A stretch of 64,000 bases of DNA from Roseomonas aerilata DSM 19363 (GTDB lineage Bacteria > Pseudomonadota > Alphaproteobacteria > Acetobacterales > Acetobacteraceae), in contig NZ_JONP01000006.1 in the NCBI RefSeq assembly GCF_000711725.1, positions 1 to 64,000 of the forward strand, in the 5' to 3' direction. Made by a program: the position numbers and the translations under genes. The notes beneath the pieces were generated by a model that made no database searches, was not told the origin of the DNA, and saw only the letters and a list, made by a program, of their open reading frames with translations. Below are positions 43,764 to 62,703 of the stretch, one piece after another. The first letter of the stretch is position 1. Each line of letters opens with the position of its first letter.

Positions 43764-45062
43764 TCACCCCAGGGGTGCGCCGAAAATGCCGGGGCCAGGG
43801 CAGCGTTCCGGTGGCCCGAGCATGGCCGCCAGGGCGTGCTCCACGGCCGCTTCCGGGAGGACGCTGCCGGCATAGCGACGGAACTTCACCAGCGCCTCCT
43901 CCTCACCCATTGGCCGATCCGGATCGCCGGTCACGCCGGTGACATCGGCCTCCGCCCGCGTGCCGTCCTGTAGGAGGAGCGCCAGCCGGGCCCCTCGCCG
44001 CCCTGCCGCCAGACCCGGATCTTCCGCCAGTTCCACCATCGCCTCGATCGCCCGCATGCGCGGGTCGGCGAGGGCTTCCTCGGCATAGGCGGCGGGGCCA
44101 AGGTCACCCTGCACGAGGGTCGCTGCCACCGCCCAGGAAAGGCTGAACTGGGCGGCGATCGGCACGGCCGGCGCGCGGTTGCCGGCGTAGTGCAGCGCCT
44201 CCGTATAGGTTTCCAGCCGGACTGCCCGCGGCAACGCGACGCCGAGGGCTGGGCGCAGCTTCAGGGCGGCAGCGGCGGCATAATGGGCGTGCCGCACCCC
44301 GGCGAAGGGCTTGAGATAAGCCTCCTCCAACAGCCAGCGGCCGGTGGGTTCCACCGCGGGCGGCTCCTCCAGGCCGAGGGCGAGGCGGCGGGCCACCAGC
44401 ATCCCGTCCCCTGGCGCGTCCATGCCAGCCAATGCCGAGGCGGCGGCCAGGCCGCCCAGGAGCACGGCGTGCGAGGCGTAGCTGTTGCGGCCGTCCATTC
44501 CGGCGGCGATCGGCGCGTAGAGGCTGAAGGGGATCTGGCAGGCGGCGACCCGCACGGCGCGTGCCGCCGCCGCCCTGTCACCGCCGCCGAGCCGGGCTGC
44601 GGCGGCGGCGGCGCCGAGGCTATGCCAGGAGCCGTCCACATGCATCCCCGGACGGATGCGCCAGGCCTCCCCGGCGCGGGCGGCGACCTCGTAGCCGAGG
44701 GCATAAGCTGAGAGAGCCTCGCCGAGCCGGGCGCCCGTCGCGAGGGCAACGAGGGCAAGGGGTGCGACCGGCAGGCCGGGCCGTCCGTGGGCGCGCGCCA
44801 GTCCCTCGTTCGCCTCGTCCCAGAGAAGGGCGGCGGCCAGCACCGCGGCGGCCCCGGCCGGGCCGAGCGGTGGGCAGCCCGGCAGGGACAGCGTGCCAGG
44901 ATGCAGCGGGGCGAGAGCCGCCGCTAGCGCGCGCGGCCGGGCGTGGGAGAGCCCCGCTAAGGAGCAGCCGAGACTGTCGATCAGCAGAAGCCGGGCCGCG
45001 CGTCCCTCCCTCGAGCCTGGAGGCGGCCCGTCCCAGGCCCAGTCCACCACGGCGTCAAGCAT
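43764..45062 (-). CDS. MmgE/PrpD-family protein
   Basis: Protein of 432 residues. Family features include LLIDSLGCSLAGLSHARP near the N terminus, HVDGSWHSLGAAAAAARLGG in the middle and a FAGVRHAHYAAAAALKLRPA stretch. Known members are 2-methylcitrate dehydratase and cis-aconitate decarboxylase, so a dehydratase, decarboxylase or isomerase role on a di- or tricarboxylate is likely. It is the last gene of the minus-strand operon, 14 bases after a Bug receptor gene. Confidence 0.88.
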   Translation of the reverse strand: MLDAVVDWAWDGPPPGSREGRAARLLLIDSLGCSLAGLSHARPRALAAALAPLHPGTLSLPGCPPLGPAGAAAVLAAALLWDEANEGLARAHGRPGLPVAPLALVALATGARLGEALSAYALGYEVAARAGEAWRIRPGMHVDGSWHSLGAAAAAARLGGGDRAAAARAVRVAACQIPFSLYAPIAAGMDGRNSYASHAVLLGGLAAASALAGMDAPGDGMLVARRLALGLEEPPAVEPTGRWLLEEAYLKPFAGVRHAHYAAAAALKLRPALGVALPRAVRLETYTEALHYAGNRAPAVPIAAQFSLSWAVAATLVQGDLGPAAYAEEALADPRMRAIEAMVELAEDPGLAAGRRGARLALLLQDGTRAEADVTGVTGDPDRPMGEEEALVKFRRYAGSVLPEAAVEHALAAMLGPPERCPGPGIFGAPLG

Positions 45063-45076
45063 CCTCGTCGACTCCC

Positions 45077-46048
45077 TCAGTCGGCCCTGACACCCGTGCG
45101 GCGGACCACCTCCTGCCAGACTTCCCGTTCGCGCTCGATGCGGCTGGTCAAGGCGGCGCGGTCGCCCGGAAGCGGGTCGGCCTGCCGGTCCGACAGGATC
45201 CGCGCCCAGGTCGCTTCCGTCAGCACCGCCTGCAGCGCGGCTTCCAGTGCCGCGAGGATGTCCGGCGGCGTCGCGGCGGCGGCGAAGACGCCGTACCAGG
45301 GTGTGGCGTCGAAGCCCGGCACGGTCTCGGCGACGGAGGGCACTTCCGGCAGCAACGGGCTGCGCGCGGCGGAGGAGACGGCGAGCGCGCGCAGGGCCCC
45401 GGCCCGCACCTGCGGCAGGGAGGTGCCGAGCGCGTCGAAGGCGATGTCGAGGTTGCCTGCCACGAGGTCGGTCAGCATCGGCGCGCTGCCCCGGTAGGGC
45501 ACATGCGTCATCTCCGCCCCCGTCAGGCTCCGCAGCAGTTCCATGGAGAGATGGGTGAAGGAGCCGGCGCCGTTGGAACCGTAGGAGAGGCCGCCGCTGC
45601 GTTCCTTGGCGGCGGCCAGCGCCTCCGCCAGGGAACCGAAGCCCCGGGCGCGGGCGACCAGAAGGTTCGGCTGCTGCGCCAGCATCCCGAGCGGCACGAA
45701 ATCGGTATCCGGATCGTAGCCGAGCCGGGCGTAGAGGGCCTTGTTGATGGCCAGGATGCCCTGCGTGCCCACCAGAAGCGCGTGCCCGTCCGGCGCGGCC
45801 CGCGCCACCGCCTCGGCCGCCAGGTTGCCGCCGGCCCCGCCCCGGTTCTCCACGACCACGGTCTGGCCCAGGCGCGGCGTCAGCGCCTCCGCGGCCTGAC
45901 GCGCCAGGATGTCGGTCAGGCCGCCCGGCGCGAAGGGAACCACGAGGCGCACGGGGCGGTTGGGCTTCCAGGGCGGCTGCGCCCGCGATCCGCGGGCCAG
46001 GAGGGGGAATGCCGCCGCCCCGAACAGGACGCCTCGCCGCGTGGTCAT
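45077..46048 (-). CDS. Bug/TctC-family periplasmic solute receptor
   Basis: Protein of 323 residues from ATG 46048; GAGG lies 5 bases before it, and two other in-frame ATGs (46051, 46060) are slightly upstream. A signal peptide (TTRRGVLFGAAAFPLLARGSRAQ) precedes the family hallmarks RPVRLVVPFAPGGLTDILAR, VVENRGGAGGNLAAEAVARA and YDPDTDFVPLGMLAQ. Such receptors bind carboxylates and often function without nearby TctAB permeases. It lies inside the catabolic operon between the flavoprotein and the PrpD-like gene. Confidence 0.92.
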   Translation of the reverse strand: MTTRRGVLFGAAAFPLLARGSRAQPPWKPNRPVRLVVPFAPGGLTDILARQAAEALTPRLGQTVVVENRGGAGGNLAAEAVARAAPDGHALLVGTQGILAINKALYARLGYDPDTDFVPLGMLAQQPNLLVARARGFGSLAEALAAAKERSGGLSYGSNGAGSFTHLSMELLRSLTGAEMTHVPYRGSAPMLTDLVAGNLDIAFDALGTSLPQVRAGALRALAVSSAARSPLLPEVPSVAETVPGFDATPWYGVFAAAATPPDILAALEAALQAVLTEATWARILSDRQADPLPGDRAALTSRIEREREVWQEVVRRTGVRAD

Positions 46049-46100
46049 CATCGCCTCCATGCCTGGCCCGGCACCGTCGTCTCGCTTGCGGGGCCGCCCG

Positions 46101-47492
46101 TCACCGTACCGCCTCGCCCGCCGCCGTGCCGGCGATGCGGCCGAGCGCCACCGCCGTCAGCAGGCCGTTGCCGGAGAGATAGCCCGAGGCCTTGGACCCC
46201 GAGACGCCGCAGGCCGCGCCGCCTGCCGCAAAGAGATTGGGCAGGGCCCCACCATCCCGGCGCAGGACGCGCGCCGAGCTGTCTACGACCAGCCCGCCTT
46301 GGGTGTGGAACAGCGCGCCCGTGACACGGACCGCGCGGTAAGGCGACTCCAGTTGGGCAACGCCCGCGAAGTTCCGGCCGAAGCCGTCCGTGGCACCAGC
46401 TTCCTTCAGCCGGCGCAGCGCCGACAGCGTCACCGCCAGGGCGGTTTCCGGCAGGCCAGTGGCGGCGGCCAGGTCCGGCACCGTCTCGGCGGCCAGCACC
46501 GCGCCCGCCGCCTCGGCCTGGCGGAAATCCTCGAATTGCCGGGCGATGCCGGCGATGCGCGCGTCGAACACGGTCCAGGCGATGCCGTCCGGTTGCTCCA
46601 GCACCTTCGCGGCCTGCTCGGAGTAGCCGTGGCTCTCGTCGGAGAAGCGCTGGCCCTGGCGGTTCACCTGCACGCCGCCCTCGGTGATCGTGGCCCAGGT
46701 GATGAGGATGCCGGCGGGATGGGCGACCGATCCGTGCCCCTGGTGGCCGGAAAGATGCCGCGTGGCGGCGCCCAGCGCCTCGCCCCAGAGGACGGCCTCG
46801 CCCTGGTTGCCGGGATGGCCGAAATAGGTGGCCTCCGCCAGGGCGGGCACGTGCTGGCGGACAAGCTCCTTGTTGCCGCCATAGCCGTTGCAGGCCAGCA
46901 CCAGCGTGCCGCAGCCCAGCGCGTCGTCCGTGCCGTCCGGACGGCGGAGGGTCAGGCCGGTAATGCGGCCATCGGGCGCGGCGTGCAGCGCGGTCACCTG
47001 GGCGTCGCAGAGGATGTCGATTCCGGCCGCCTCCGCCGCCTCGCGCAGCCGGTCCACCAGTTCCTCGCCGGAGCGGCTGGGCAGGCCGTGCATGCGGTTC
47101 GCGGAATGGCCGGGATAGCGGAAATCGGTGATGACGGAGAAATCCAGGCCGTGCACGTCGGCCAGCCATTCCAGCGCGGGCGCGACGGCGTCGGTGACGG
47201 TCTTCACCGCCGCCGGGTCGGGCTCGCCCTCCGCCTTCGCCGCGATATCGGCGGCGAAGCGCGCGGGGTCGTCCTCGATCCCCGCCGCGCGCTGCCAGCG
47301 GGTGCCGGCGGCCGGCACCAGCCCGGCCGAGAGGGCGGTCGAGCCGCGCGGCACCGGGTCGCGCTCGAGCACCAGCACCTCGGCGCCCGCCTCCCGTGCC
47401 GCCAGGGCCGCGCAGAGGCCCGCGGCGCCGGCGCCGACCACCACCACGGGGATGGCGACCTCGTAGGCCTCGCGTGCCGGAAGGATCGTCAC
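46101..47492 (-). CDS. Fumarate-reductase-like FAD oxidoreductase
   Basis: Protein of 463 residues of the FAD_binding_2 family. The nucleotide-binding GAGAAGLCAALAAREAGAEVLVLE is near the N terminus, and SNTRxSGGG-like STALSAGLVPAAG, LACNGYGGN, and GVSGSKASGYLSGNGL near the C terminus are seen. Relatives are fumarate reductase, 3-ketosteroid dehydrogenase and tricarballylate dehydrogenase, which introduce or remove a C=C bond next to a carbonyl or carboxylate. Here it would probably desaturate a pathway intermediate. Its ATG overlaps the stop of the isochorismatase-like gene. Confidence 0.88.
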   Translation of the reverse strand: MTILPAREAYEVAIPVVVVGAGAAGLCAALAAREAGAEVLVLERDPVPRGSTALSAGLVPAAGTRWQRAAGIEDDPARFAADIAAKAEGEPDPAAVKTVTDAVAPALEWLADVHGLDFSVITDFRYPGHSANRMHGLPSRSGEELVDRLREAAEAAGIDILCDAQVTALHAAPDGRITGLTLRRPDGTDDALGCGTLVLACNGYGGNKELVRQHVPALAEATYFGHPGNQGEAVLWGEALGAATRHLSGHQGHGSVAHPAGILITWATITEGGVQVNRQGQRFSDESHGYSEQAAKVLEQPDGIAWTVFDARIAGIARQFEDFRQAEAAGAVLAAETVPDLAAATGLPETALAVTLSALRRLKEAGATDGFGRNFAGVAQLESPYRAVRVTGALFHTQGGLVVDSSARVLRRDGGALPNLFAAGGAACGVSGSKASGYLSGNGLLTAVALGRIAGTAAGEAVR

Positions 47493-48100
47493 GCGCCAAG
47501 CTCCGCCATCACCTCGGCGACCGTTGCCACCCGCGCGACGGGCCGCAGCGCCGCGATGGCCGTTTCGTGCGCCGCCCGGCCGAAGGTGGCGCAGCCGTCG
47601 GAGAGCACGGTGACGTCAATGTCCCGCACATGCGCGTCCCGCACGGTGGTGGAGACGCCGCCGTTGGTGGTGATGCCACCGACCACCAGCCGCTCGATCC
47701 CGCATTTGCGGAGCATCCATTCGAGGCGGGTCATGTAGAAGGCGGAGTAGGCGACCTTCTCGATCGGGATGTCGCTCGGACCCAGCTCCTCCACCAGTTG
47801 CTGCCCCCAGCTTCCCGGGGCGAAGTCGCCGCGGCGCAGAAAGGGGCGAAGGGTCTTCAGGTGCGGCGCGATGATCGGCTCCCCTCCCCTCCCCGGCCAG
47901 AGGGTGAAATGGGTGGAGGCGATCCAGCCGCCGGCGCGTCGCATCGCGTTTGCCAGCGGGGCCAGCCGCGCCGAAAGCGCCGCGATGTCGGGATCACCCT
48001 GCCCGCCGCGGGCATAGGCGCCTTCCGGGTGGATGAAGTCGTTCTGCAGGTCGAAGAGCAGCAGGGCCGTGTTCGCGGCGGGAATGGACGGGTGGCTCAT
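47489..48100 (-). CDS. Isochorismatase-like hydrolase lacking the catalytic cysteine
   Basis: Protein of 203 residues. D17 in LLFDLQND and K115 in IEKVAYSAF match two residues of the Asp-Lys-Cys set in cysteine hydrolases of this fold, but the cysteine position reads glycine (G148 in GGITTNGGVSTTVRDA, where TNVCV is usual). Glycine is found there in true isochorismatases, which cleave a vinyl ether by acid catalysis. So this may not be an amidase. Start ATG 48100 overlaps the hyuA stop; its own stop overlaps the flavoprotein gene. Confidence 0.85.
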   Translation of the reverse strand: MSHPSIPAANTALLLFDLQNDFIHPEGAYARGGQGDPDIAALSARLAPLANAMRRAGGWIASTHFTLWPGRGGEPIIAPHLKTLRPFLRRGDFAPGSWGQQLVEELGPSDIPIEKVAYSAFYMTRLEWMLRKCGIERLVVGGITTNGGVSTTVRDAHVRDIDVTVLSDGCATFGRAAHETAIAALRPVARVATVAEVMAELGA

Positions 48101-50157
48101 GCCGCGGCCTCGACAATGACGTTGCCCAGGTGATCCACCCGCGCGGTCAGGCCGGGGTCCACCACGGTAGTGGCGTCGGGCTGCTCCAGGATCGCGGGGC
48201 CCGGGATCACGGCACCCACCGGCAGGTCGAGCCGCGAGAGGATGGCCGTCTCGTGCCAGGCGCCGCTGAACCAGACCGGCCGCGCGCCGCGCCGCGCGCC
48301 CTCGACTGTCGTGCCGGGCTCGGGCGCCAGGCTGGCGAGGTCGAAATGCGGGCGCCGCCCCACTGCTGCCGTGCGGAGATTCACGATCCGCGCGGGCACC
48401 CCGTGCAGCAGGCGGCTGAAGCTCGCCTGATAGGCCGCCTCGAAGGCCGCGCGGATCACGGCCTCGCTCACGCCCGCCGTGCCGCCCGTGACATCCAGCG
48501 CCAGGGGCACGGAAACGGTATGCGTCTGGCCGGCATAGTGCATGTCCAGCTCGAAGAGCGTGTCGATGCGCTCGACCGGCAGCCCCGCCTCCGCGACCAC
48601 CGCCCGCACCGCTTCCGCCTCGGATACCATCAGTGCGTCGAGCGACGCGGCGTCGATGCCCTCGAGCGAGAGGTTCACCGTGCGAACCTGGTCGTGGCGG
48701 ATATCGGCTATGACGCAGCCCAGCGCCGAGTTGATGCCGGGGAAGCGCGGCACCAGCGCGGCCTTCAGCCCGACCTCTCGGATCAGCGCCCCCGCGTGCA
48801 GGGCGCCGCCACCGCCGAAGGGCACGGCGGCGAAGCGCGAGGGATCGTGGCCGCGCTCGATGGAGACGAGGCGGATCGCCTTCGCCATATGGCCGTTTGC
48901 GACCCGCAGGATCGCCTCCGCCGCCGCCATGGCGTCGAGGCCGAGGGGGGCGCCCACATGCTCGAGGATCGCGGCCTTCGCGGCCTCCACGTCCAGCCGC
49001 TTGAGCCCGCCGCCTATCGGCCGCTCCGCGTTGATGCGGCCGAGGACGACATTGGCGTCCGTCAGCGTCGGCCGCGTGTTGCCGCCGCCGTAGCAGACCG
49101 GGCCAGGGCGCGAGCCCGCGCTTTCCGGCCCCACCTGGAGGAGCCCGCCCGCATCCACCCGCGCGATGGAGCCGCCGCCGGCGCCGATCGTGGTGATTTC
49201 GATCATCGGCGTGCGGATGACGAGGCCGAAGTCGATCGTCGTCTGCGCCGCCAGCGCCGTCTCGCCGCCGACGACGAGGGAAACGTCGAAGGAGGTGCCG
49301 CCGAGGTCGCCCGTGACCACGTCGGGGTAACCCGCCGCACGCGCGATCGCCGCCGCCGCGATCACCCCCGCCGCCGGGCCGGAGAGTGCCGTCCGCACCG
49401 GCAGCTTGCGCGCCGATTCCGTGGACATGACGCCGCCGTTCGACTGCACGATGTGGAAGCGGCCGGTGAAGCCATCCCCCTTCAGCGCCGCGTCCAGCTT
49501 GCCGAGATAGGAGCCGACGACGGGCTGGAGATAGGCGTTCAGGGCCGCGGTGGAGGTGCGCTCGAACTCGCGGATCTCGGGCAGGATGGCGGAGGAGCAG
49601 GCGATGCAGTCGCCTTCCCAGACCTCCTCGGCAGCGGCTAGCGCCGCGCGCTCGTTCGCCGAATTGGCGTAGGCGTTGATGAAAACGATGGCCAGCGCTT
49701 CCGCCCCCATCTCCCGCAGGCGCCGCGCCGCGCCGCGCACGGCGTCGAGGTCCACGGGCTGGCGCACGGTGCCGTCGGCGAGCGTCCGCTCCGGCACTTC
49801 CAGCCGGAAGTCGCGGTCCACCACCGGCACGAAGTCGCCCCAAAGGCCCCAGGTCCGCAGTCGGTCGCGCCGCCGCATCTCCAGTACGTCGCGGAAGCCC
49901 GCGGTGGTGATGAGGCCGACCCTCGCGCCCTTACGCTCCAGTAGCGCGTTGGTGCCAACCGTCGTGCCGTGAACCACCGAGGCGAGATCGGCCACCGCGC
50001 CGAACTGGCGCAGGCCGTTCAGGAATCCCACCGCCTCGTCGCCGCGGTTCGAGGGCACCTTGGCTGTGCGGAAGCTGCGCGCGGCCTCGTCGTAGAGGAA
50101 GAGGTCGGTGAAGGTGCCGCCGACATCGACGCCGACGACCTTGGCGGAAGCGGTCAC
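48097..50157 (-). CDS. hyuA: Hydantoinase/oxoprolinase family protein, subunit A
   Basis: Protein of 686 residues from GTG 50157 (GTGA overlap with the hyuB stop). An earlier in-frame ATG (50511) lies far inside hyuB and is rejected. The ASKHA-type ATP site starts with VGVDVGGTFTDLFLYD, followed by VHGTTVGTNALLERKG and DVVTGDLGGTSFDVSLV. With HyuB it forms an ATP-dependent enzyme that opens hydantoin, 5-oxoproline or similar cyclic amides, or carboxylates ketones. The partner gene set here favours a ring-opening amidohydrolase, without proof. Confidence 0.93.
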   Translation of the reverse strand: MTASAKVVGVDVGGTFTDLFLYDEAARSFRTAKVPSNRGDEAVGFLNGLRQFGAVADLASVVHGTTVGTNALLERKGARVGLITTAGFRDVLEMRRRDRLRTWGLWGDFVPVVDRDFRLEVPERTLADGTVRQPVDLDAVRGAARRLREMGAEALAIVFINAYANSANERAALAAAEEVWEGDCIACSSAILPEIREFERTSTAALNAYLQPVVGSYLGKLDAALKGDGFTGRFHIVQSNGGVMSTESARKLPVRTALSGPAAGVIAAAAIARAAGYPDVVTGDLGGTSFDVSLVVGGETALAAQTTIDFGLVIRTPMIEITTIGAGGGSIARVDAGGLLQVGPESAGSRPGPVCYGGGNTRPTLTDANVVLGRINAERPIGGGLKRLDVEAAKAAILEHVGAPLGLDAMAAAEAILRVANGHMAKAIRLVSIERGHDPSRFAAVPFGGGGALHAGALIREVGLKAALVPRFPGINSALGCVIADIRHDQVRTVNLSLEGIDAASLDALMVSEAEAVRAVVAEAGLPVERIDTLFELDMHYAGQTHTVSVPLALDVTGGTAGVSEAVIRAAFEAAYQASFSRLLHGVPARIVNLRTAAVGRRPHFDLASLAPEPGTTVEGARRGARPVWFSGAWHETAILSRLDLPVGAVIPGPAILEQPDATTVVDPGLTARVDHLGNVIVEAAA

Positions 50158-51797
50158 TTCGCGGCACTCACATAGCCCAGCCGCACGTCGCGCGCGGCCG
50201 CGGCCGGATCGCGCGCGGCTGGGTCGCCCCAGCCGCCGCCGCCAGGCGTTTCCAGCCGCACCCGCTGCCCGGCCTCCAGGCGGATATCCGTAACCTTCGA
50301 GACCATCGGCGGGTTCCGCGGCCCCTCCGGCGTGTCGTAGGTGAAGCGGTTCCGCGCGGCCTCTCCGCCGCCGCCCACGCCGAAGGGCGCGACTTTGCCG
50401 CGTTCGCCAAGAAGGGACACGGAGGCCGGCACCAGCGCCTCGACCTCGTAGACCGCGCCCAGCCCGCCGCGATGCATGCCGGTGCCGGCGGAGTCCGGCC
50501 GCAGCGCCCACTGCGTGAACATCACGGGATAGGCGGCCTCCAGGATCTCCACCGGCGGGATGGTGGCGGTGGAGATGGGATTGTTCGCGTGGTTCAGCCC
50601 GTCGCTCTCCGGGTTGCCGCCAAGGCCGCCGCCGAAGAAGGAGAACATGACGAAGCGCGAGCCATCCTGCCGGTGCCCGGCGATGGAGAGCGCGTTGATC
50701 GTGCCGAAGGGCGCGGCGGTGGCGCGGGCAGGATCGGCCTTCGCCAGCGCGCCGAAGATCACGCCGATCAGACGCAGCACCGTTTCCGTGTAGCCCGCCA
50801 TCGGATGCGGCGCGCCCGCACCGAGCAAGGTGGTACCGGGCACCACGAAGCGGATCGGCCGCAGGCAGCCCGCATTTGCCGGCACCTCGGTGAACACATG
50901 CTTCAGCGCGACATAGCAGCCCGCGATGGTCGTGGCGCGGCTGATGCTCACCGGCCCTTGCGCGGGCGGGGAGGAGCGGGAGAAGTCGAGCACCATCTCC
51001 TCCCCAGCGATGGTGAGGTCGAGCGCGATGGTCAGCACCTCGTCCGTTATGCCGTCGTTGTCCAGCACGTCCTCAAAGGTGTAGGTGCCATCGGGAAGGC
51101 TCGTGATCGAGGCACGCATCAGCGCCTCCGCCCGCGCGGAGAAGGCGGCGAAGGCGCCCTGCACCAGTTCCTCCCCGTGCTCGTCGACGAGTGCGTTGAG
51201 GCGCCGCTCGCCGAGGTCGAGCGCGTTGATCTGGCCGTTCAGGTCGCCCCAGTTAGAGGCGGGCACGCGGGAGTTCGCAGCCAGAATGTCCACGATATCC
51301 GAGTTCAGCACCCCATCCCGCATCAGCCGCACGGGCGGCAGGCGAAAGCCCTCCTGGAAGCTCTCCGTCGCCTTCGGGTTGTAGCCGCCGGGCACGTTGC
51401 CGCCGACATCGAGCCAGTGGCCCACGCTCGCGATCCAGCAGAACAGCTCGCCCTTGCGGAAGACCGGCCGCACCAGGCGGAAATCATTCAGGTGCGTGCC
51501 GCCCTCATAGGGGTCGTTGAACAGAAAGGTGTCGCCAGGGCGCAGGTCACCGTCGCGCGCGACCTTGTCGATCACCACCTTCACCGCGAAGGCCATGGCG
51601 CCGACGAATATCGGCAACCCGCTGGTGCCCTGCACCAGCGTTTCGCCGGTGGTCGCGTGGTACAGCCCGTGGCAGGCGTCCTTCGCCTCGGCGATGATGG
51701 GGTTGAAGGCGGAGCGGAAGAGGGTGGCGTCCATCTCGTCCGCGATGCCCTCCAGCCGCCCCTTGAGGATGGCAAGCGTGACGGGATCCGGCGTCAT
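50154..51797 (-). CDS. hyuB: Hydantoinase/oxoprolinase family protein, subunit B
   Basis: Protein of 547 residues starting with DPVTLAILKGRLEGIADEMDATLFRSAFNPIIAEAKDACHGLYH, the usual HyuB beginning, with DTFLFNDPYEGGTHLNDF and a glycine-rich C-terminal RVRLETPGGGGWGDP. It is the second component of the ATP-dependent ring-opening enzyme. ATG 51797 overlaps the lyase stop. Confidence 0.94.
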   Translation of the reverse strand: MTPDPVTLAILKGRLEGIADEMDATLFRSAFNPIIAEAKDACHGLYHATTGETLVQGTSGLPIFVGAMAFAVKVVIDKVARDGDLRPGDTFLFNDPYEGGTHLNDFRLVRPVFRKGELFCWIASVGHWLDVGGNVPGGYNPKATESFQEGFRLPPVRLMRDGVLNSDIVDILAANSRVPASNWGDLNGQINALDLGERRLNALVDEHGEELVQGAFAAFSARAEALMRASITSLPDGTYTFEDVLDNDGITDEVLTIALDLTIAGEEMVLDFSRSSPPAQGPVSISRATTIAGCYVALKHVFTEVPANAGCLRPIRFVVPGTTLLGAGAPHPMAGYTETVLRLIGVIFGALAKADPARATAAPFGTINALSIAGHRQDGSRFVMFSFFGGGLGGNPESDGLNHANNPISTATIPPVEILEAAYPVMFTQWALRPDSAGTGMHRGGLGAVYEVEALVPASVSLLGERGKVAPFGVGGGGEAARNRFTYDTPEGPRNPPMVSKVTDIRLEAGQRVRLETPGGGGWGDPAARDPAAAARDVRLGYVSAAK

Positions 51798-55945: not shown

Positions 55946-55946
55946 G

Positions 55947-57161
55947 TCAGCCCTGGATCGGGAAGACGGGCCGGGCGTCGGCGGCCTCGGCGGGGAAAAT
56001 CACCTTGATGTCGCCGTCCTGAACCTGAGTGTTCACCGGGCGCGCGCCCTGGTTCTGGCCGTTCACGAAGCGCGTGGGGCCGTAGGGCATGATGTGCCCG
56101 GAATAGTCGGAGGCCGCGAGCGCCGCCATCACCTTCGCCCTGTCCGCCGCGCCGGCGCGGTTCACCGCATCGGCCACCAGCTTCACGCAGGAGTAGTTCA
56201 GCGGGATGTTGTAGGCCCAGAACTTGCCGGCCGCGTCCACCTGCGCCTTCAGCGCCACGGCCTCGGAGTTCTTCGGGTCGTGCCAGTGGTTGCAATCCAT
56301 CACCCCCAGCGCGGCGTCCGGGAACTCCTTCACGAAGCGGTAGTTCGAGGCGGCGCCGTTCAGCACGGCGTAAACCCCCTTCGGCCGGATCCGCTGCTGC
56401 CGCATGGTGCGGGAGAGCAGCACGAACTCTCCGTAATAGGAGGAGGGGATCAGCAGGTCCGGCCGCAAGGAGCGCAGGCGCAGCGCAATGTTGTTCATGT
56501 CGCGCGCGGGAGTTGGATGCGGGATCGTCTCCAGCACCTCGAAGCCGTGCTTCGGCAGCTCCATTGCCATCAGCCGCGCCAGGCCCGAACCGAATAGCCC
56601 GTCCTCATGCACCAGCACGACGGTCTTGCAGGGTTTGCCCGCGGCGTCGTTCAGCCGTATGAGGTTCTCCACCGCCGCCGAGGTTACCGTCCCGAAGCCT
56701 GGCGCCAGGCGGAAGGTATTGGCCAGCCCGCGCGTGACGATCCCGTCGGCCACCCCGACATCGACCACATAGGGCAGGTCGTAGCGCGCGGCGGCCTGGC
56801 TGGCGGCGAGGCAGATCGGGCTGGCGAAGCCGCCGACGATCGCGACCACCCCCTCCCCTTGCAGCTTCTCCACCTCCTGCGCCCCGGCTTCGGGATTGGA
56901 GCGCGCGTCGGCCACCACCAGCTCGATCTTCGCCCCGCCCAGCGCCGGCAAGCCGCCATCGGCGTTGATTTTCGCGACCGCCGCCTCGGCGCCCAGCCGG
57001 CCGAGCTCCCCGTCCTGCGCGAGCGCGCCGGTGAGGGGCTGCAGCAGGCCGATTTTCACGGGAGCGGGCTGGGCCCGCAGCACGGCCGGCATCGCGAGAA
57101 GCGCGGCGCCAGAGGCCGCGGTGCCGAGCAGAGCGCGGCGGTTGATGGGATAAACTGTCAT
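55947..57161 (-). CDS. Second Liv-type substrate-binding protein
   Basis: Receptor of 404 residues with a Tat-like signal (NRRALLGTAASGAALLAMPAVLRAQ), then VKIGLLQPLTGALAQDGELGRLGAEAAVAKINADGG. It belongs to the amide/urea/HAAT receptors. Its ligand is presumably the substrate of the operon, perhaps a cyclic amide or carboxamide. Its ATG overlaps the GntR stop. Confidence 0.92.
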   Translation of the reverse strand: MTVYPINRRALLGTAASGAALLAMPAVLRAQPAPVKIGLLQPLTGALAQDGELGRLGAEAAVAKINADGGLPALGGAKIELVVADARSNPEAGAQEVEKLQGEGVVAIVGGFASPICLAASQAAARYDLPYVVDVGVADGIVTRGLANTFRLAPGFGTVTSAAVENLIRLNDAAGKPCKTVVLVHEDGLFGSGLARLMAMELPKHGFEVLETIPHPTPARDMNNIALRLRSLRPDLLIPSSYYGEFVLLSRTMRQQRIRPKGVYAVLNGAASNYRFVKEFPDAALGVMDCNHWHDPKNSEAVALKAQVDAAGKFWAYNIPLNYSCVKLVADAVNRAGAADRAKVMAALAASDYSGHIMPYGPTRFVNGQNQGARPVNTQVQDGDIKVIFPAEAADARPVFPIQG

Positions 57162-58018
57162 CGGCTCGTCCTCTTGCGCTCTGATCTGGAGGTCTTCGTG
57201 CAGCTTACCGATGCCGCCTTCGCGGAGGCGGCATCGGCGGCATTCGCCGCGGGCGGCACGCTCGTCGGGCTCCAGCGCCGCTCGCCCTCGGCGCCGGTTC
57301 GCTGAAGCTGCATCTCGAAGGAGAAACGGTCCGGGCGGTACAGGGCGCGCAGGTGCTCCACCGGCCGCCCCTCCTCGTCCTGCACAAGCCGCGTCAGCGC
57401 GATCAGCGGCGCGCCGATCTCAACCTCCAGGGCCTCGGCCAGCTCCGGTCCGGCGAGCGCCGCGCCGATGCTCTGGCGCGCCCGGCCGATCCTCAGCCCC
57501 GACCGCTCAAGCAGCGTCAGCAGCGGGTGGCTCGCCAGTTCCGCCTCGGAATAGGTCCGCCCGATCCCCGCGGGCACGTGGGTGGTGAGGTGGGAGAAAG
57601 GCCCGCCGCCCATGCGCCGCACGCGCACGGCCCGCTGCGCGGCCTCGCCCGGCGCCAGTTCCAGCGCCTCGGCCACGGGCGGGGGCGGCACGGCATAGGC
57701 GAAGGAGAGCAGCCGCACCTCAGTGCGCCGGCCCATCTCCTTGAGGTGCAGGAACACGTCCGAGAAATCGACGATGGTCGGCGGCAGCACCGCGCCGGCG
57801 CGGACGAAGGTGCCGACGCCGGGGCGGCGCTCCACGAGCTGTTCCTGCGCCAGCTGGTCCAGCGCGCGGCGCACGGTCACCCGCGCCACGCCGTGCTCGG
57901 CGGCCAGGTCGGGCTCCCCCGGCAGGCGCGCGCCAGGCGGCAGCGCGCCGCCCGCGATGCGGTCGCGCAGCACGAGGTAGATCCGGCGCGCCTTGAAGGG
58001 TTCGACCGCCGCGCTCAA
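57158..58018 (-). CDS. GntR-family regulator (HutC/UTRA type)
   Basis: Protein of 286 residues from TTG 58018. No ATG or GTG suits the start of the winged helix, and GGAG lies 6 bases upstream of this TTG (GGAGCGGACG before it). The DNA-binding domain (about 8-75) has RLPGEPDLAAEHGVARVTVRRALDQLAQEQLVERRPGVGTFV, followed by a UTRA effector domain (about 95-245) and an unusual Ala/Ser/Arg-rich tail of about 45 residues. It is the first gene of the minus-strand operon, so it probably regulates itself and the divergent LeuC-like operon through the palindrome at 58041-58060. Confidence 0.88.
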   Translation of the reverse strand: MSAAVEPFKARRIYLVLRDRIAGGALPPGARLPGEPDLAAEHGVARVTVRRALDQLAQEQLVERRPGVGTFVRAGAVLPPTIVDFSDVFLHLKEMGRRTEVRLLSFAYAVPPPPVAEALELAPGEAAQRAVRVRRMGGGPFSHLTTHVPAGIGRTYSEAELASHPLLTLLERSGLRIGRARQSIGAALAGPELAEALEVEIGAPLIALTRLVQDEEGRPVEHLRALYRPDRFSFEMQLQRTGAEGERRWSPTSVPPAANAADAASAKAASVSCTKTSRSERKRTSR

Positions 58019-58040
58019 ACGTCCGCTCCTTCGTGCCCAC

Positions 58041-58060
58041 CTGTCCTGTAGGCAGGACAG
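58041..58060. promoter_or_regulatory. Palindromic operator in the gntR-leuC divergent region
   Basis: CTGTCCTG-TAGG-CAGGACAG: perfect 8-base arms around 4 bases, 22 bases upstream of the GntR TTG. A related imperfect site (CTGT-N7-ACAG, 58065-58079) lies beside it. Likely the binding site of the GntR regulator. Confidence 0.65.
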
Positions 58061-58089
58061 CTTCCTGTCTAGGTTACAGAACAGCAGGA

Positions 58090-58119
58090 TTGCATCAAGC
58101 CTCATCGCAAGCCTATCGT
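58090..58119 (+). promoter_or_regulatory. Possible promoter of the LeuC-like operon
   Basis: TTGCAT (58090-58095) and TATCGT (58114-58119), spacer 18. Start near 58126, 19 bases before the ATG. Matches are weak, which would fit activated or derepressed transcription. Confidence 0.3.
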
Positions 58120-58144
58120 TCAGAAGCACAGGGAGGCCAGGACA

Positions 58145-59569
58145 ATGGCGGACCAAGCGCCGCGCACGCTGTTCGACAAGGTGTGGGACGCCCATGTCGT
58201 CCTGACGCGCGAGGACGGGCAGGCCTTGCTGCTCATCGACCGGCACTTCTTCCACGAGGGCTCGCACCACGCCTTCAACCAGCTGGCGGCGCGCGGTGCG
58301 CGGGTGCCCTACCCGACGCAGAACATCGGCGTGGTGGACCACTACATCCCTACGCGCGGCCCCCGGAACAGGGGTCCCGGGGCGATCGCCGATCCGACGA
58401 TCCGCCGCATGGTGGAGCAGGTCACCGATAACGCCGCGCGGCACGGGCTCCGCCTCTTCGGCCTGAACAGCCCCGGCCAGGGGATCGTCCATGTCGTCGG
58501 TCCCGAGCAGGGCCTGACCCTGCCCGGCCTCACAATCGTCTGCGGCGACAGCCACACTTCCACGCACGGGGCCTTCGGCGCGCTCGCCTTCGGCATCGGC
58601 GCGAGCGAGGTCGCGCATGTGCTGATGACGCAGACCCTCTGGCAGCGCCGCCCGGGGCGGATGCGCATCGCGGTGGAGGGAGAATTGGGACCGGGGATTG
58701 GCGCGAAGGACGTTGCGCTTTCCATCATCGCCCGCATCGGCGCGGACGGCGCCGCGCGCCACGCGGTGGAATATGCAGGGTCCGCCATTCGCGCCCTTTC
58801 GATGGAGGGGCGCCTGACCCTCTGCAACCTTGCCATCGAGTCCGGGGCCCGCTGCGGCATGGTGGCGCCGGACGAGACCACCCTCGCCTTCCTTCGCGGC
58901 CGCCCCTTCGCGCCGCAGGGCGCAGAATTCGACCAGGCGGCCGAGGCCTGGTTGGCGCTGCCCGGAGATACGGACGCCGCCTTCGACCGCGAGGTGACGC
59001 TGTCGGCGGACGAGATCGCGCCGATCGTCACCTGGGGCGTGAGCCCGGAGGACGCGCTGCCCGTCACCGCCACCCTGCCCGATCCCGACCGCACCCAGGA
59101 CCCCGCCCGCGCCGCCGGGATCCGCGACGGGCTGGACTATATGGGCCTTCGCGCCGGGCAGAAGCTGTCCGACATCGCCGTGGACCGCGTCTTTATCGGC
59201 TCCTGCACGAACAGCCGCATCGAGGACCTGCGCGCGGCCGCCGCCGTCCTCGCCGGGCGCCGTGCCCGCGTGCCCGGCCTCGTCTCCCCCGGCTCGACCC
59301 TCGTGAAGCAGCAGGCGGAGCAGGAGGGACTGGACCGCATCTTCCGCGACGCCGGATTGGAATGGGTGGAATCCGGCTGCTCGATGTGCGTGGGCATGAA
59401 CGGCGACCTGCTGGCTGCTGGGGAGCGCTGCGCCTCCACCACCAACCGCAACTTCAAGGGGCGGCAAGGCAAGGGCTCGCGCACGCATCTCATGTCGCCC
59501 GCGATGGTCGCCGCGGCCGCCGTCACCGGCCACCTGACTGACGTGCGCCCCCTGCTCGAGGGCCGCTGA
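58145..59569 (+). CDS. leuC: LeuC-type hydro-lyase large subunit (paralogue)
   Basis: Protein of 474 residues, start ATG 58145 after GGGAGG. The 4Fe-4S ligands are C354 (GSCTNSR), C412 and C415 (GCSMC), and most of the 3-isopropylmalate dehydratase sequence is conserved. The substrate-side loop differs: RHFFHEGSHHAF instead of the common HEVTSPQAF, and VVDHYIPT instead of VDHNVPT. Together with the catabolic context this suggests a paralogue working on another 2- or 3-hydroxy acid, for example a methylated malate or citrate-like compound. The small subunit follows 2 bases later. Confidence 0.88.
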   Translation: MADQAPRTLFDKVWDAHVVLTREDGQALLLIDRHFFHEGSHHAFNQLAARGARVPYPTQNIGVVDHYIPTRGPRNRGPGAIADPTIRRMVEQVTDNAARHGLRLFGLNSPGQGIVHVVGPEQGLTLPGLTIVCGDSHTSTHGAFGALAFGIGASEVAHVLMTQTLWQRRPGRMRIAVEGELGPGIGAKDVALSIIARIGADGAARHAVEYAGSAIRALSMEGRLTLCNLAIESGARCGMVAPDETTLAFLRGRPFAPQGAEFDQAAEAWLALPGDTDAAFDREVTLSADEIAPIVTWGVSPEDALPVTATLPDPDRTQDPARAAGIRDGLDYMGLRAGQKLSDIAVDRVFIGSCTNSRIEDLRAAAAVLAGRRARVPGLVSPGSTLVKQQAEQEGLDRIFRDAGLEWVESGCSMCVGMNGDLLAAGERCASTTNRNFKGRQGKGSRTHLMSPAMVAAAAVTGHLTDVRPLLEGR

Positions 59570-59571
59570 CG

Positions 59572-60222
59572 GTGCAGCCCTTCCTCACACTGGCCGCCAC
59601 CGCCTGTCCGCTGCCGCTCGCGAACGTGGACACCGACCAGCTCATCCCCGCGCGCTTCATGAGCCGCCCCCGCAGCGCCGGCTACGGCGACGTGCTGCTG
59701 TACGACCTCCGCTTTGACGCCGACGGCACGGCACGCCCGGGCTTCCCGCTCAACGACCCCGCCCGTACGGGCGCCGGCATCCTCGTCGCCCGCCGCAACT
59801 TCGGCAGCGGCTCCTCGCGGGAGGCGGCGGCCTATGCCCTGGTGGACCACGGCATCCGCTGCGTCCTCGCGCCCAGCTTCGGGGACATCTTCAGCAGCAA
59901 CGCCGTCAATAACGGCCTTCTCCCGGCACGGCTCGAGGAGGAGGCGGTGGAGTGGATCCTAGCCTGGCTGGAAGCCGGCAACACTGAGATGACGGTCGAT
60001 CTCGATGCCTGCAGCGTCTCGGCCGGTGGCCGCAGCTGGAGCTTCGCCATCGACCCGGTCTGGCGCACGAAGCTGCTCAACGGCTGGACGGACGTGGACC
60101 TGACCCTCAGCCACGCCGCCGCGATCGAGGCCTTCGCGACCACTGACCGGGCGCGCCGCCCCTGGGCGTGGTTGCCGGACGTGCCCTCGAAAGAACCAAG
60201 CCAGGAGACGCCAGCAGCATGA
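59572..60222 (+). CDS. leuD: LeuD-type hydro-lyase small subunit (paralogue)
   Basis: Protein of 216 residues from GTG 59572. Hallmarks: LANVDTDQLIPARFM, RRNFGSGSSREAAAYALVDHGIRCVLAPSFGDIF. The usual GCGSSREHA motif reads GSGSSREAA, another departure from standard LeuD. It completes the swivel domain of the aconitase-fold enzyme with the preceding gene. The next gene begins inside its stop codon (ATGA). Confidence 0.88.
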   Translation: MQPFLTLAATACPLPLANVDTDQLIPARFMSRPRSAGYGDVLLYDLRFDADGTARPGFPLNDPARTGAGILVARRNFGSGSSREAAAYALVDHGIRCVLAPSFGDIFSSNAVNNGLLPARLEEEAVEWILAWLEAGNTEMTVDLDACSVSAGGRSWSFAIDPVWRTKLLNGWTDVDLTLSHAAAIEAFATTDRARRPWAWLPDVPSKEPSQETPAA

Positions 60223-61007
60223 CGAGCCCCGCGCCGGATTTCACGCGAACTGGCACCCTGCCCCGCGCCATCACGCCGGACTGCCTGTGGACGGGGCGCT
60301 GCCTGCCGAGCAGCGTGCCCGACATGCACGCGCATTACGCGCTCTACCTGCTGAAGGGCAGCGAGAAGACGGTGCTGATCGACACCGGCCACCCTATCCA
60401 TTGGGCCGAGGTGCGGCGCGACGTGGACGCCTTCCTCGCTGGTCGTCCCCTCGACTACATCTTCCCAACGCATAGCGAGCTGCCGCATTCCGGCCTGCTG
60501 GAGCGATGGATGCGCGAGTTCCCGCAGGCTGTCGCGATCGGCGACATGCGGGACTACCCGCTCTACCACCCCCAACTCGCGCACCGCTTCCGCCAGGTCG
60601 AGCCCGGCGACCGCCTGGACCTCGGCGACCGCGAGTTGCTCTTCCTCCCGCCCGTCTGGCGCGACCTGCCGGACACCCTTTGGGCCTTCGACACGAAGGA
60701 CCGCATCCTCTTCCTCTCGGATGCCTGCGCCTATTTCCACGCGCATGTCCCCGGCCAGTGCGACCACCTGAGCAGTGAGATCGCGCCGCCCGACCTCGCG
60801 ATCATGAGGGACTTCAACGACAAGGCCCTGCACTGGCCAAAGTTCACGGACAGCCGCCCCAGCTTCCCGGAGATCGATGAGCTTCTTGCGCGCCTTCGCC
60901 CGCGCTTCCTCGCCGGCGCGCATGGCTGCGTGGTCGATACGCCGGCGGAGGCGCTGCCGCTCTTCAAGAGGGGCATCGCCATGGGCCCGGGGGCGGCAGC
61001 GACATGA
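60219..61007 (+). CDS. Beta-lactamase-fold protein, ODP-like, altered metal motif (1)
   Basis: Protein of 262 residues from ATG 60219. It resembles the oxygen-binding (ODP) beta-lactamase domain of flavodiiron proteins without a flavodoxin part: DTGHP, LPPVWRDLPDTLWAFD, FLSDACAYFHAH and AGAHG. The metal motif HxExDH reads H85-S-E87-L-P89-H90, so the aspartate has become proline. The bridging aspartate (D168) and last histidine (H235) remain, but the histidine normally before LPD is replaced. One or no iron may bind. The next gene encodes a paralogue with the opposite pattern of losses. Confidence 0.75.
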   Translation: MTSPAPDFTRTGTLPRAITPDCLWTGRCLPSSVPDMHAHYALYLLKGSEKTVLIDTGHPIHWAEVRRDVDAFLAGRPLDYIFPTHSELPHSGLLERWMREFPQAVAIGDMRDYPLYHPQLAHRFRQVEPGDRLDLGDRELLFLPPVWRDLPDTLWAFDTKDRILFLSDACAYFHAHVPGQCDHLSSEIAPPDLAIMRDFNDKALHWPKFTDSRPSFPEIDELLARLRPRFLAGAHGCVVDTPAEALPLFKRGIAMGPGAAAT

Positions 61008-61900
61008 CCGAGACCGAGGGCTTCGCCGAAATCATCCCCGGCACGCTCGCCGCCACCGGCGGCTGGCTGGACGTGGCCGCGCGTCCCATCAGCTGGATCC
61101 CGCCCACGGCACGCGGCCTGCTGCCCGTGCAGGGTTATATCCTGCGCGACGGCGAGAGCTGGCTCATGGTGGATACCGGCCTTGCCGTGCACTGGCCCCT
61201 CGTGGCCGAAGGCATCCGCCGCACGCTGGAAGGTACCACGGAGCGCCGGCTGATCACCACGCGGCGCGAGCAGGACTGCATGATCAACCTGCCGGCCATC
61301 CTCGGCGAGTTCGGCGTGCGCGAGGTGCTATACGCGGGCGTTCTCAATCCGCTCGACTTCTTCGAGGGCGTGGAGGAACGCGACGCCGTCGCCCGGATTG
61401 AAGCGACGCCCGGCCTGCGCGCCACGCGCATCGCCCCCGGCGCGGTCACGGTCGTCGGGCGCCTGCGGCTGGAAGTCCTGCGCGTGGAGCTGCGCCTTCT
61501 CGCGACGAACTGGTTCTACGAGACGGAGACGGCGACGCTCTTCACCTCCGATGCCTTCGCCTTCCTCGCGCGGCCCGCGCAGGCCTGGAGCGCCGGCCTC
61601 TCGCGCCTGCGCGCGCCGGACGAGGCGCCGATCCGGGCGGAGGACGCCGCACTCTATCTCTCCGCCAAGATGGACTGGCTGATCGGCATCGACCCCGCCC
61701 CGGTGCTGGCCGATCTCGACGCTATCCAGGCCGCCCGTCCCATCGCCCGCCTCTGCCCCGGCTTCGGCCTCGTGATCGAGGGCGAGGCGGCGGTGCGCGA
61801 AGCTTTCGATGCGGTCCGGGAAGCGCTGCGGATCCTCGGCGCGCGCCCGCGTAAGGTGTGGCGCTTCCCGGACGCGTTGAACGCAGAGGCGGCGGCATGA
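61004..61900 (+). CDS. Beta-lactamase-fold protein, ODP-like, altered metal motif (2)
   Basis: Protein of 298 residues overlapping the previous gene by 4 bases and similar in layout (GYILRDGESWLMVDTGLAVHWP, TSDAFAF, CPGFG). Its HxExDH position reads R87-R-E89-Q-D91-C92: the glutamate and aspartate stay but both histidines are lost, and the last histidine is a phenylalanine (F254). It is unlikely to hold a normal two-metal site alone. It may be a regulatory or structural partner of the first protein. Function unknown. Confidence 0.72.
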   Translation: MTETEGFAEIIPGTLAATGGWLDVAARPISWIPPTARGLLPVQGYILRDGESWLMVDTGLAVHWPLVAEGIRRTLEGTTERRLITTRREQDCMINLPAILGEFGVREVLYAGVLNPLDFFEGVEERDAVARIEATPGLRATRIAPGAVTVVGRLRLEVLRVELRLLATNWFYETETATLFTSDAFAFLARPAQAWSAGLSRLRAPDEAPIRAEDAALYLSAKMDWLIGIDPAPVLADLDAIQAARPIARLCPGFGLVIEGEAAVREAFDAVREALRILGARPRKVWRFPDALNAEAAA

Positions 61901-62703
61901 GCGGCTATCCCGGCACCGCCTTCCGCGCCCGCATGCAGGCGGGAGAGCTCGCCCTCGGCAGCAATCTTCGCCTCACCCGCAGTGCGGAGGCAGGGCCCAT
62001 CCTCGCGGCCTGCGGTTTCCACTGGGCGATGCTCGACTTCGAGCACAGTCCGGCCTCGCCACATATCGCGCACGACGTCGCGCTCTCGGCCATCCGCGCC
62101 GGCATCCTGCCCCTCGCGCGCCCTTCCAGCCACGACCCGCACGAGATCGCGGGGCTTCTCACCAACGGCGCGCTCGGCCTCGTCGTGCCGCATGTGGACA
62201 CACCGGAGCAGGCGGCGGCCGTTGCGCGGGCGGCGCGCTTCGCGCCGCGCGGCAATCTCTCCGTCCCTGGAACCCTCGCGCATTTCGGCTATGACAAGGG
62301 CCTCGCAGAGGCCTGCGCGATCTTCAATGAGGAGGTCGTGGTTGCGGTGATGATCGAGAGCCGCACGGCAGTCGAGAATGTCGAGGCGATCGCGGCGGTG
62401 CCGGGCGTGGACGGGCTGTTCATCGGCGGCTCGGACCTGCTCTGGGATCTCGGCTTGCCCGGCCGCTACGACGCGCCCGAACTGCTCGACGCCGTGGAGC
62501 GGACCTGCGCCGCGGCCGCGCGCAACGGGCTCTTCGCCGGCATGGGTGGGCCACGCGACGAGGGCCCCTGGCACGGTTTCCTCCGCGCCGGGATGCGCAT
62601 GATCCTGACCGAGAATGATCTCTCGCTGATGATGCGCGGCGCGCGCGACCGACGCGCCTTCTTCGAGGGTGTGCTCTCCGGCAGTGCGGCGGTGGGGGCC
62701 TGA
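61897..62703 (+). CDS. HpcH/HpaI-family aldolase
   Basis: Protein of 268 residues from ATG 61897, overlapping the previous stop (ATGA). Class II pyruvate aldolase hallmarks: LDFEHSP (catalytic histidine), MIESRTAVENVEAIAAVPGVDGLFIGGSDL (metal-binding Glu and Asp). Enzymes of the family cleave 4-hydroxy-2-oxo acids to pyruvate and an aldehyde. It closes the plus-strand operon; the next gene is convergent. It may cleave the pathway product made after hydration by the LeuCD-like enzyme. Confidence 0.87.
   Translation: MSGYPGTAFRARMQAGELALGSNLRLTRSAEAGPILAACGFHWAMLDFEHSPASPHIAHDVALSAIRAGILPLARPSSHDPHEIAGLLTNGALGLVVPHVDTPEQAAAVARAARFAPRGNLSVPGTLAHFGYDKGLAEACAIFNEEVVVAVMIESRTAVENVEAIAAVPGVDGLFIGGSDLLWDLGLPGRYDAPELLDAVERTCAAAARNGLFAGMGGPRDEGPWHGFLRAGMRMILTENDLSLMMRGARDRRAFFEGVLSGSAAVGA

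Follow-up and report, generated by a model that had tools for sequence, protein, structure and literature searches.

What compound is degraded by the enzymes of two divergent operons in Roseomonas aerilata DSM 19363, the core proteins of which all come from known superfamilies while the pathway that they would form in combination matches none known to us? The locus occupies positions 43764–62703 of a 64,000-nucleotide stretch (contig NZ_JONP01000006.1, positions 1 to 64,000 of the forward strand), the whole of which is referred to below as the window, and its 18 genes include those for a GntR-type regulator, a LivKHMGF importer, a lyase of the isocitrate lyase (ICL)/phosphoenolpyruvate (PEP) mutase superfamily, a HyuAB pair of the ATP-dependent hydantoinase type, an isochorismatase-like hydrolase (ISO), a flavin adenine dinucleotide (FAD) enzyme and a LeuCD-type hydratase. 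An earlier note on this DNA had recorded paired catabolic operons with 'no recognised substrate', a description that can now be narrowed, on the evidence of the ring openers that occupy the HyuAB slot and of glutarate-activating genes in related clusters, towards an imide whose side chain is a carboxyethyl group.

That the genes just named constitute a core devoted to cyclic-imide catabolism, with hematinic acid and/or its dihydro form as the likeliest substrate, is a judgement that we regard as evenly balanced, and the broader proposition that a cyclic imide is converted into a 2-oxoacid and a carboxylate is held with fair confidence. Gene content, its conservation, the substitution of one ring opener for another, the loss of Cys from ISO, glutarate genes inside related operons and operator-like sites are direct observations; every reaction, the substrate itself and the regulation we infer from them.

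Conservation of the core gene set

Loci (given the prefix L) were gathered in three samples. The first, a lyase pattern scan of named genomes, returned at least 80 loci, of which 80 were analysed; the second, an ISO query against 385 genomes of the class, had hits in 26 genomes (the window's among them) and yielded, outside the window, 26 loci in 25 genomes; and the third, a lyase query against 398 genomes of the phylum, had hits in 14 genomes other than that of the window, six of them in other classes, with 15 lyase places besides the window's, of which 14 loci were read, the remaining one (G255) being already present in the collection as L165. Lyase counts refer to 113 loci (80 from the first sample, 19 of the 26 from the ISO search and 14 from the phylum), and counts on lyase-chosen loci to the 94 of the first and third samples (80 and 14), one locus being present in both. 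Two pairs of loci represent the same DNA (L044 = L208 and L118 = L180), both members of which stay in the counts, as do L059 and L069, labelled Flavobacteriia and Oceanobacillus respectively; the clusters of these two resemble alphaproteobacterial ones, and contamination or mislabelling is probable. Names of neighbour families were assigned by eye except where a Pfam, NCBIfam or PDB match is cited.

At 50% identity, the first sample contained HyuB at 72 of the 80 loci, HyuA at 70, ISO at 68, the FAD enzyme at 61 and LeuC at 54, with HyuB, HyuA, ISO and the lyase present jointly at 67. All five Liv genes were found at 44/80 loci (at least 45% identity), and TRAP-type genes in some other clusters. 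The second sample, scored at 33% identity or above, gave HyuA at 24/26 loci, HyuB at 23/26, the lyase at 19/26 and a LeuC-type protein at 17/26, while the 14 loci of the third comprised six with HyuAB plus ISO, one with an AllB-like and two with a PuuE-like protein, and five with no ring opener. Across the lyase-chosen loci, a ring opener was present at 86/94 (77/80 plus 9/14), and 80/94 (68/80 plus 12/14) had a hydratase of the LeuC or Dmd type. As a control, 20 loci of lyase paralogues (39–49% identity) contained HyuB, ISO, the FAD enzyme and glutaryl-CoA dehydrogenase (GcdH) at 0/20 each at 50% identity, and LeuC at 2/20. The earlier view of the locus as one import-and-catabolism system is sustained by this co-conserved core, and the gene order is kept far beyond close relatives, contrary to the first of the outcomes that the note had named as refuting its reading.

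Within the family to which the window belongs, a draw of 150 genomes included 23 others carrying the lyase at 55% identity or more, 21 of them with HyuB in the same short locus, and the two other sampled members of the genus gave distant matches only (best E values 5e-58 and 1e-54). Such a patchy distribution suggests horizontal transfer of the system, the carriers of which include Methylobacterium sp. WSM2598 (L045) and Rhizobium sp. Leaf306.

The set also exists in divided and reduced forms. In two genomes of the genus represented by L176 it is distributed over two loci that are jointly complete, the lyase (74–75% identical) being located elsewhere together with the FAD enzyme, GntR, LivKHMGF and racemases. 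A minimal form consisting of the lyase, LeuCD, GntR and a Bug receptor, with no ring opener, is found in L209, and L041 and L043 resemble it but are cut by contig ends. The window's own genome holds, on contig C55, a paralogous cluster of this minimal kind (L122) with the order Bug-PrpD-LeuD-LeuC-lyase-Bug, a lyase at 46% identity, a divergent GntR gene and no ring opener.

Ring-opening hydrolases

HyuB (50154–51797) and HyuA (48097–50157), both on the minus strand, were assigned to the subunits of the ATP-dependent hydantoinase/lactamase family by Pfam domains scoring over cut-off (Hydantoinase_B in the case of HyuB), and HyuA matched the N-methylhydantoinase 7hk5 in the PDB with 402 bits; models of the caprolactamase CapAB returned 486 and 300 bits against a cut-off of 1000 each. 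At some loci a different hydrolase occupies the HyuAB slot, in two groups each defined at 50% identity or more. One group (L104, L114, L116 and L215) has an AllB-like protein, that of L104 being a cyclic amidohydrolase which matches allantoinase and dihydropyrimidinase models below cut-off and the other three being grouped with it by similarity; another (L048, L051, L220 and L221) has a PuuE-like protein, present as two in tandem in L048, L220 and L221. HyuAB was detected at 50% identity in none of these eight loci (0/8). The available text of PMC9304392 connects the PuuE family with hydrolases of cyclic imides: HxnM is described there as such a hydrolase, sharing 64% identity with a Pseudomonas putida imidase homologue, and PuuE as the closest characterised relative of 3qbu, the structural homologue of HxnM. 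The occurrence of unrelated ring hydrolases beside enzymes of 1,4-dicarboxylates points to a cyclic imide as the substrate class, the same hydrolase families also opening hydantoins and allantoin. In the proposed scheme, a cyclic imide would first be imported and then opened by HyuAB at the expense of ATP to give a half-amide.

The breadth of these families also underlies a decidedly unlikely alternative, in which a hydantoin or lactam (cf. creatinine and caprolactam) is the substrate of HyuAB and ISO, and the hydratase and lyase handle a different acid under a shared regulator. HyuA is indeed closest to caprolactamase and N-methylhydantoinase, and ring opening of allantoin and hydantoins is known from the AllB and PuuE families; yet opening of such rings would give amino acids, and no transaminase appeared by eye among the recurrent neighbour families, ISO is without the Cys of carbamoyl amidases, and HyuAB and ISO are tightly co-conserved with the hydratase and the lyase.

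A separate arrangement was recorded in L160, where HyuB-HyuA-ISO lies beside proteins resembling, by eye, a Mo hydroxylase, HMG-CoA lyase, maleate isomerase and a flavin monooxygenase, perhaps as a related pathway for another N-heterocycle.

The isochorismatase-like protein

The earlier note had credited ISO (47489–48100, minus strand) with a further hydrolysis, and the role of an ordinary amidase had to be abandoned on inspection of its active site. The position of the nucleophile (Gly148 in the window) was occupied by Gly in 93 of 94 orthologues and by Ala in the remaining one, so that the nucleophilic Cys is gone from all 94. Asp17 and Lys115 were at least 97% conserved, leaving an Asp-Lys-Cys triad incomplete at its third member, and a solved relative of ISO carries Cys at the aligned position. 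Disubstituted maleamates lose their amine through attack by the neighbouring carboxylate, and the loss of Cys from ISO fits self-cleavage of this kind. ISO would help to release ammonia in the third step of the scheme, and we advance the hypothesis that the neighbouring carboxylate of the substrate itself stands in for the missing cysteine.

The FAD enzyme, hydratase and lyase

The FAD enzyme (46101–47492, minus strand), a member of the flavocytochrome c/TcuA superfamily and putative alkylsuccinate dehydrogenase, scored 249 bits against TIGR01813, below cut-off, and 175.6 bits against the TcuA model, the cut-off of which is 369. It was present at 9/14 loci of the third sample, to be set beside 61/80 of the first, and was distributed very unevenly with respect to the ring openers, occurring at 70 of the 86 lyase-chosen loci that contain one and at none of the eight that do not, which indicates that the enzyme belongs with ring opening. 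Its part, as the fourth step, would be to desaturate succinate-type inputs to the maleate type.

Both hydratase subunits, LeuC (58145–59569) and LeuD (59572–60222) on the plus strand, exceeded the cut-offs of their models (TIGR00170, 640 against 560 bits; TIGR00171, 177 against 116 bits). As regards a role of LeuCD in leucine synthesis, three other LeuC copies exist in the window's genome (52–59% identical, one with an internal stop), and the catabolic neighbourhood of the cluster LeuCD is conserved. In many clusters a Dmd/Hac-family hydratase takes the place of LeuCD, such a protein being found at 14/80, 12/26 and 7/14 loci of the three samples. The fifth step would be hydration, by LeuCD or the Dmd/Hac type, of 2-methyl-3-(2-carboxyethyl)maleate, a methylated homoaconitate.

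The lyase (51794–52666, minus strand) was placed in the ICL/PEP mutase superfamily by the Pfam PEP_mutase model (153 bits; cut-off 31.5) and scored 280.2 bits against the NCBIfam PrpB equivalog, below the cut-off of 354.4. Its PKRCGH motif was conserved in 102 of 103 orthologues, KRCGH being the form found in PrpB and KKCGH that of ICL according to the accessible part of PMC11982470. As a proposed (methyl)homoisocitrate lyase, the enzyme would in the sixth step cleave methylhomoisocitrate to pyruvate and glutarate. A candidate enlargement of its substrate pocket (PrpB Leu234 to Gly) was discarded, the alignment as we read it placing Leu234 opposite Ile230 with Pro-Gly-Gly two residues further on; no argument is built on PrpB residues Phe186 and Leu234, selectivity being unsettled in the same paper. 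Taken together, the conserved enzymes bear out the order of ring opening, FAD step, hydration and lyase cleavage put forward earlier.

Glutarate as a product and the nature of the substrate

Some related clusters include genes for the onward use of a product. GcdH was found at seven of 106 loci, six times on the strand of the operon, and a glutarate-type CoA-transferase also at seven. L073 and L095 both read lyase-FAD-GcdH-CoA-transferase, the genes overlapping or nearly touching; in L049, 183 bases separate ISO from GcdH and the CoA-transferase, which come next; L176 reads HyuB-HyuA-ISO-GcdH-CoA-transferase-LeuC-LeuD, an order shared by the matches in L177 and L178, both of that genus; and in L157 the CoA-transferase lies between ISO and LeuC. 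Two glutaryl-CoA dehydrogenases, 3gnc and 1sir, matched GcdH with 611 and 551 bits; the best match of GcdH, 4w9u (702 bits), is labelled just as an acyl-CoA dehydrogenase, and the sole NCBIfam model for glutaryl-CoA dehydrogenase scored below cut-off, with FadE models scoring higher. The window's genome encodes a GcdH elsewhere, 70% identical to that of L073. Operon-borne GcdH and a glutarate-type CoA-transferase point to glutarate as the product of the pathway, an assignment that we favour, if rather less firmly than the conversion of an imide to a 2-oxoacid and a carboxylate. In a seventh step, glutarate would be processed by the CoA-transferase and GcdH.

If glutarate is released by the lyase, then the lyase must act on a malate that bears a 2-carboxyethyl group at C3; the corresponding imide with a methyl group on the other carbon is hematinic acid, which fits exactly and would give pyruvate and glutarate. 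The preferred substrate would thus be a five-membered imide with 2-carboxyethyl and methyl groups, the FAD enzyme serving dihydro forms derived from reduced tetrapyrrole rings; that the substrate is a hematinic-type acid we judge a little short of an even call. Such compounds do have a natural context. Hematinic acid is reported from leaves in the part of PMC7318184 available, and the accessible text of PMC8669743 deals with how bacteria attack porphyrins, counts maleimides among the breakdown products of tetrapyrrole pigments, cites by reference title a bacterial protein that frees hematinic acid from heme, and in that same accessible text gives no gene for the onward route of maleimides. A literature search by title and abstract, with subscription papers mostly outside it, found no bacterial route for hematinic acid or cyclic imides among the papers listed, and no literature was found on the four enzymes together.

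The glutarate genes fit equally well with a substrate lacking the methyl group or having a six-membered ring (glutarimide-3-acetate or 3-(2-carboxyethyl)succinimide, for example from a pyridine), which would be opened, desaturated by the FAD enzyme to homoaconitate and, once hydrated, split into glyoxylate and glutarate by a homoisocitrate lyase. A saturated imide of this kind explains the tracking of ring openers by the FAD enzyme at least as well as a hematinic-type acid does, it fully explains a Hac-family hydratase, and a six-membered imide is what the imidase-family enzyme HxnM opens according to the available part of PMC9304392. We nevertheless consider it unlikely, in that no glyoxylate-handling gene was seen by eye among the recurrent neighbour families, the exceptions being single candidates at the edge of L048, and in that the lyase has the KRCGH of PrpB (102/103) rather than the KKCGH of ICL, which, on the accessible text of PMC11982470, is weak evidence.

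Less likely again is a plain dialkylmaleimide or dialkylsuccinimide (methylethylmaleimide or a dimethyl type) degraded by a route resembling that of 2,3-dimethylmalate to pyruvate and a monocarboxylate. The lyase loop NMVEGG is similar to that of the petal death protein, hydratases of the Dmd/LeuD family are present, and L209 provides a minimal form free of any ring opener, all of which would suit such a substrate; the location of GcdH and the glutarate-type CoA-transferase within operons would not, nor would the receptors of some clusters, which belong to the carboxylate-binding families TRAP and TctC.

Against the preferred hematinic-type imide and its conversion to pyruvate and glutarate must be set a number of observations drawn from each part of the argument. 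Hematinic acid is already unsaturated, so that the FAD enzyme would be needed only for dihydro forms, yet it tracks the ring openers; maleimides, moreover, were undetected in leaves in the available part of PMC7318184. The resemblance of the lyase loop to the NMIEGG of the petal death protein lends no support to a carboxyethyl group, and the selectivity of the PrpB family is an open question in the accessible text of PMC11982470, so that pyruvate rather than glyoxylate is a prediction. GcdH is infrequent (7/106 loci, 0/14 in the third sample, and three of the seven in one genus), that of L057 lies beyond a LysR-like gene from the FAD enzyme and is a neighbour rather than an operon member, and the best model for the CoA-transferase, succinate-glutarate CoA-transferase, gave 492–546 bits with three proteins against a cut-off of 750. 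The PuuE-like protein of L048 scored 112 bits to PuuE allantoinase and 44 to the imidase-related 3qbu. Distant AllB-type proteins (26–32% identical to that of L104) occur alongside HyuAB in L098, L106 and L117, as does a distant PuuE-like protein (31%) in L163; the replacement rule is for this reason limited to the close groups, and our confidence in the imide-to-2-oxoacid conversion was lowered slightly. Finally, the core is not invariably intact: the hydratase is lacking at 20/113 and the ring opener at 9/113 lyase loci within the stretch read, some of them cut by contig ends, ISO stands alone in L158 and L161, HyuAB-ISO occurs without a nearby lyase in L160 and L179, and the control locus L238 combines LeuC at 58% identity with distant HyuAB (32–39%) and a lyase at 42%.

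Relation to known systems

In the 2,3-dimethylmalate branch of anaerobic nicotinate breakdown in Eubacterium barkeri, a maleate-type hydratase of the aconitase superfamily is followed by an ICL/PEP mutase lyase that yields pyruvate. A hydratase and lyase pair of the same superfamilies is present here, the differences being the entry of an imide with its hydrolases, the FAD enzyme, and glutarate in probable place of propionate. The methylcitrate cycle (PrpB, AcnD/PrpD) shares the lyase family, the KRCGH motif and the proposed pair of products, pyruvate and a dicarboxylate; the present lyase, by contrast, falls below the PrpB cut-off and its substrate is probably one carbon longer. Tricarballylate use by TcuA offers an FAD enzyme of the same superfamily as a parallel for the proposed conversion of succinate type to maleate type, but the FAD enzyme here scores below the TcuA cut-off and the tricarballylate system is not known to include ring-opening hydrolases. 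The likeness to dimethylmalate and tricarballylate chemistry noticed earlier is to this extent justified.

The creatinine route deploys an ATP-dependent hydantoinase and then an isochorismatase-fold carbamoyl amidase. It shares the HyuAB family with the caprolactamase CapAB and with the present system, and its second protein has the same fold as ISO; the second enzyme here is without Cys, and the downstream enzymes differ. Nicotinate use by HxnM and HxnN in Aspergillus, as given in the available part of PMC9304392, likewise opens an imide and then removes an amide, but there the ring is six-membered and the enzyme an HxnM-type imidase, in place of HyuAB.

Gene arrangement, importer and regulation

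All 18 genes were located between 43764 and 62703 and their overlaps read directly, which upholds the earlier description of two tightly coupled operons, and 17 of the 18 proteins matched Pfam families fitting their names, the sole protein with no Pfam match being the second MBL protein (61004–61900). The minus operon consists of 13 genes joined for the most part by 4-base overlaps, the run from GntR to the FAD enzyme being almost continuous, with gaps of 40 bases before Bug and 14 before PrpD. LivG and LivF overlap by 41 bases as called; the first Met of LivF is at residue 12, and the true start is probably 11 codons further in. The plus operon has five genes, with a gap of 2 bases between LeuC and LeuD followed by three 4-base overlaps.

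The importer, encoded entirely on the minus strand, comprises a LivK-type binding protein (55947–57161; Pfam Peripla_BP_6; 44/80 loci), the permeases LivH (55076–55945) and LivM (54114–55079), both matching BPD_transp_2 and each found at 45/80 loci at 50% identity or more, and the ATPases LivG (53368–54117; ABC_tran and BCA_ABC_TP_C) and LivF (52674–53408; ABC_tran), each at 48/80 loci at the same threshold. In a Roseovarius metagenome-assembled genome (L100, positions 12873–18038) the Liv genes appear fragmented, with several matches per gene.

The operons stand back to back across a 138-base spacer (58007–58144), the minus operon beginning with a GntR/HutC-type regulator with a UTRA domain (57158–58006, minus strand; Pfam GntR and UTRA), which was present at 69/80 loci at 40% identity or more. 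The spacer contains an operator-like palindrome of the CTGT-N12-ACAG type, CTGTCCTGTAGGCAGGACAG (58041–58060), and a second CTGT-N12-ACAG site (58065–58084), these being the only two such sites in the window; two or more occurred in one of 100 shuffles. A listing of perfect palindromes alone gave no common operator, and the spaced motif emerged instead. Exact CTGT-N12-ACAG was found in 20 of 68 regions upstream of GntR (19 of 67 at other loci, plus the window), and 200 sets of random stretches of the same loci averaged 0.39 with no set above 3, counts that are descriptive, the motif having been chosen after palindromes in some of the GntR-upstream regions had been inspected. GntR would control both operons from the shared spacer by way of this predicted operator.

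Genes outside the core

Five genes of the locus fall outside the core. The minus operon ends with a Bug/TctC receptor (45077–46060) and an MmgE/PrpD protein (43764–45062), and the plus operon with an ODP-like metallo-β-lactamase (MBL) protein (MBL1, 60219–61007), the second MBL protein (MBL2) and an HpcH/HpaI aldolase (61897–62703). As candidate core members they were rejected: PrpD, MBL1, MBL2 and HpaI were absent from all 80 loci even at 40% identity, and Bug was found at 0/80 at 50% and 1/80 at 40%, so that the place in the pathway that the earlier note had given them, and the C-C cleavage that it had entertained for HpaI, are not supported. Relatives of MBL2 were found in three other genomes among 150 searched of the window's family (33–38% identity). 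It is highly improbable that all 18 genes serve one pathway with hydration by PrpD and cleavage by HpaI, even though MBL1, MBL2 and HpaI are translationally coupled to LeuCD in the window; the absence of all five proteins at 50% identity from the 80 loci argues instead for local additions in the case of the MBL proteins and HpaI.

Other families recur beside the clusters. A second PrpD protein, distinct from that of the window, is present at 20/80 loci at 50% identity (for example L045, 8531–9931), often between LivF and the lyase. A fusion of tautomerase-like and SnoaL-like domains, found in L073 (1917–2489) and, among the 106 loci, in 32 more, frequently next to GntR or HyuB, perhaps shifts double bonds. 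Proteins of the Asp/Glu/hydantoin racemase family, often in tandem, lie beside the cluster in L048 (12851–14394), L057, L090, L100, L106, L190 and L191, and may epimerise succinate-type intermediates.

Significance

Heme and chlorophyll are made and broken down on an enormous scale, and their oxidative breakdown ends in part in small imides such as hematinic acid. We tentatively suggest that the core described here is a bacterial gene set for tetrapyrrole-derived maleimides, the first that we have come across, acting by way of HyuAB, a Cys-less hydrolase and the cleavage of methylhomoisocitrate to pyruvate and glutarate. A defined operon, a marker lyase, the Cys-less hydrolase and a predicted operator make the question testable. 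If the suggestion is correct, enzymology would gain a lyase of the homoisocitrate type and perhaps an amide cleavage assisted by the substrate, the end products of heme and chlorophyll oxidation would return to central metabolism, and a gene set spread through many alphaproteobacteria would acquire a function.

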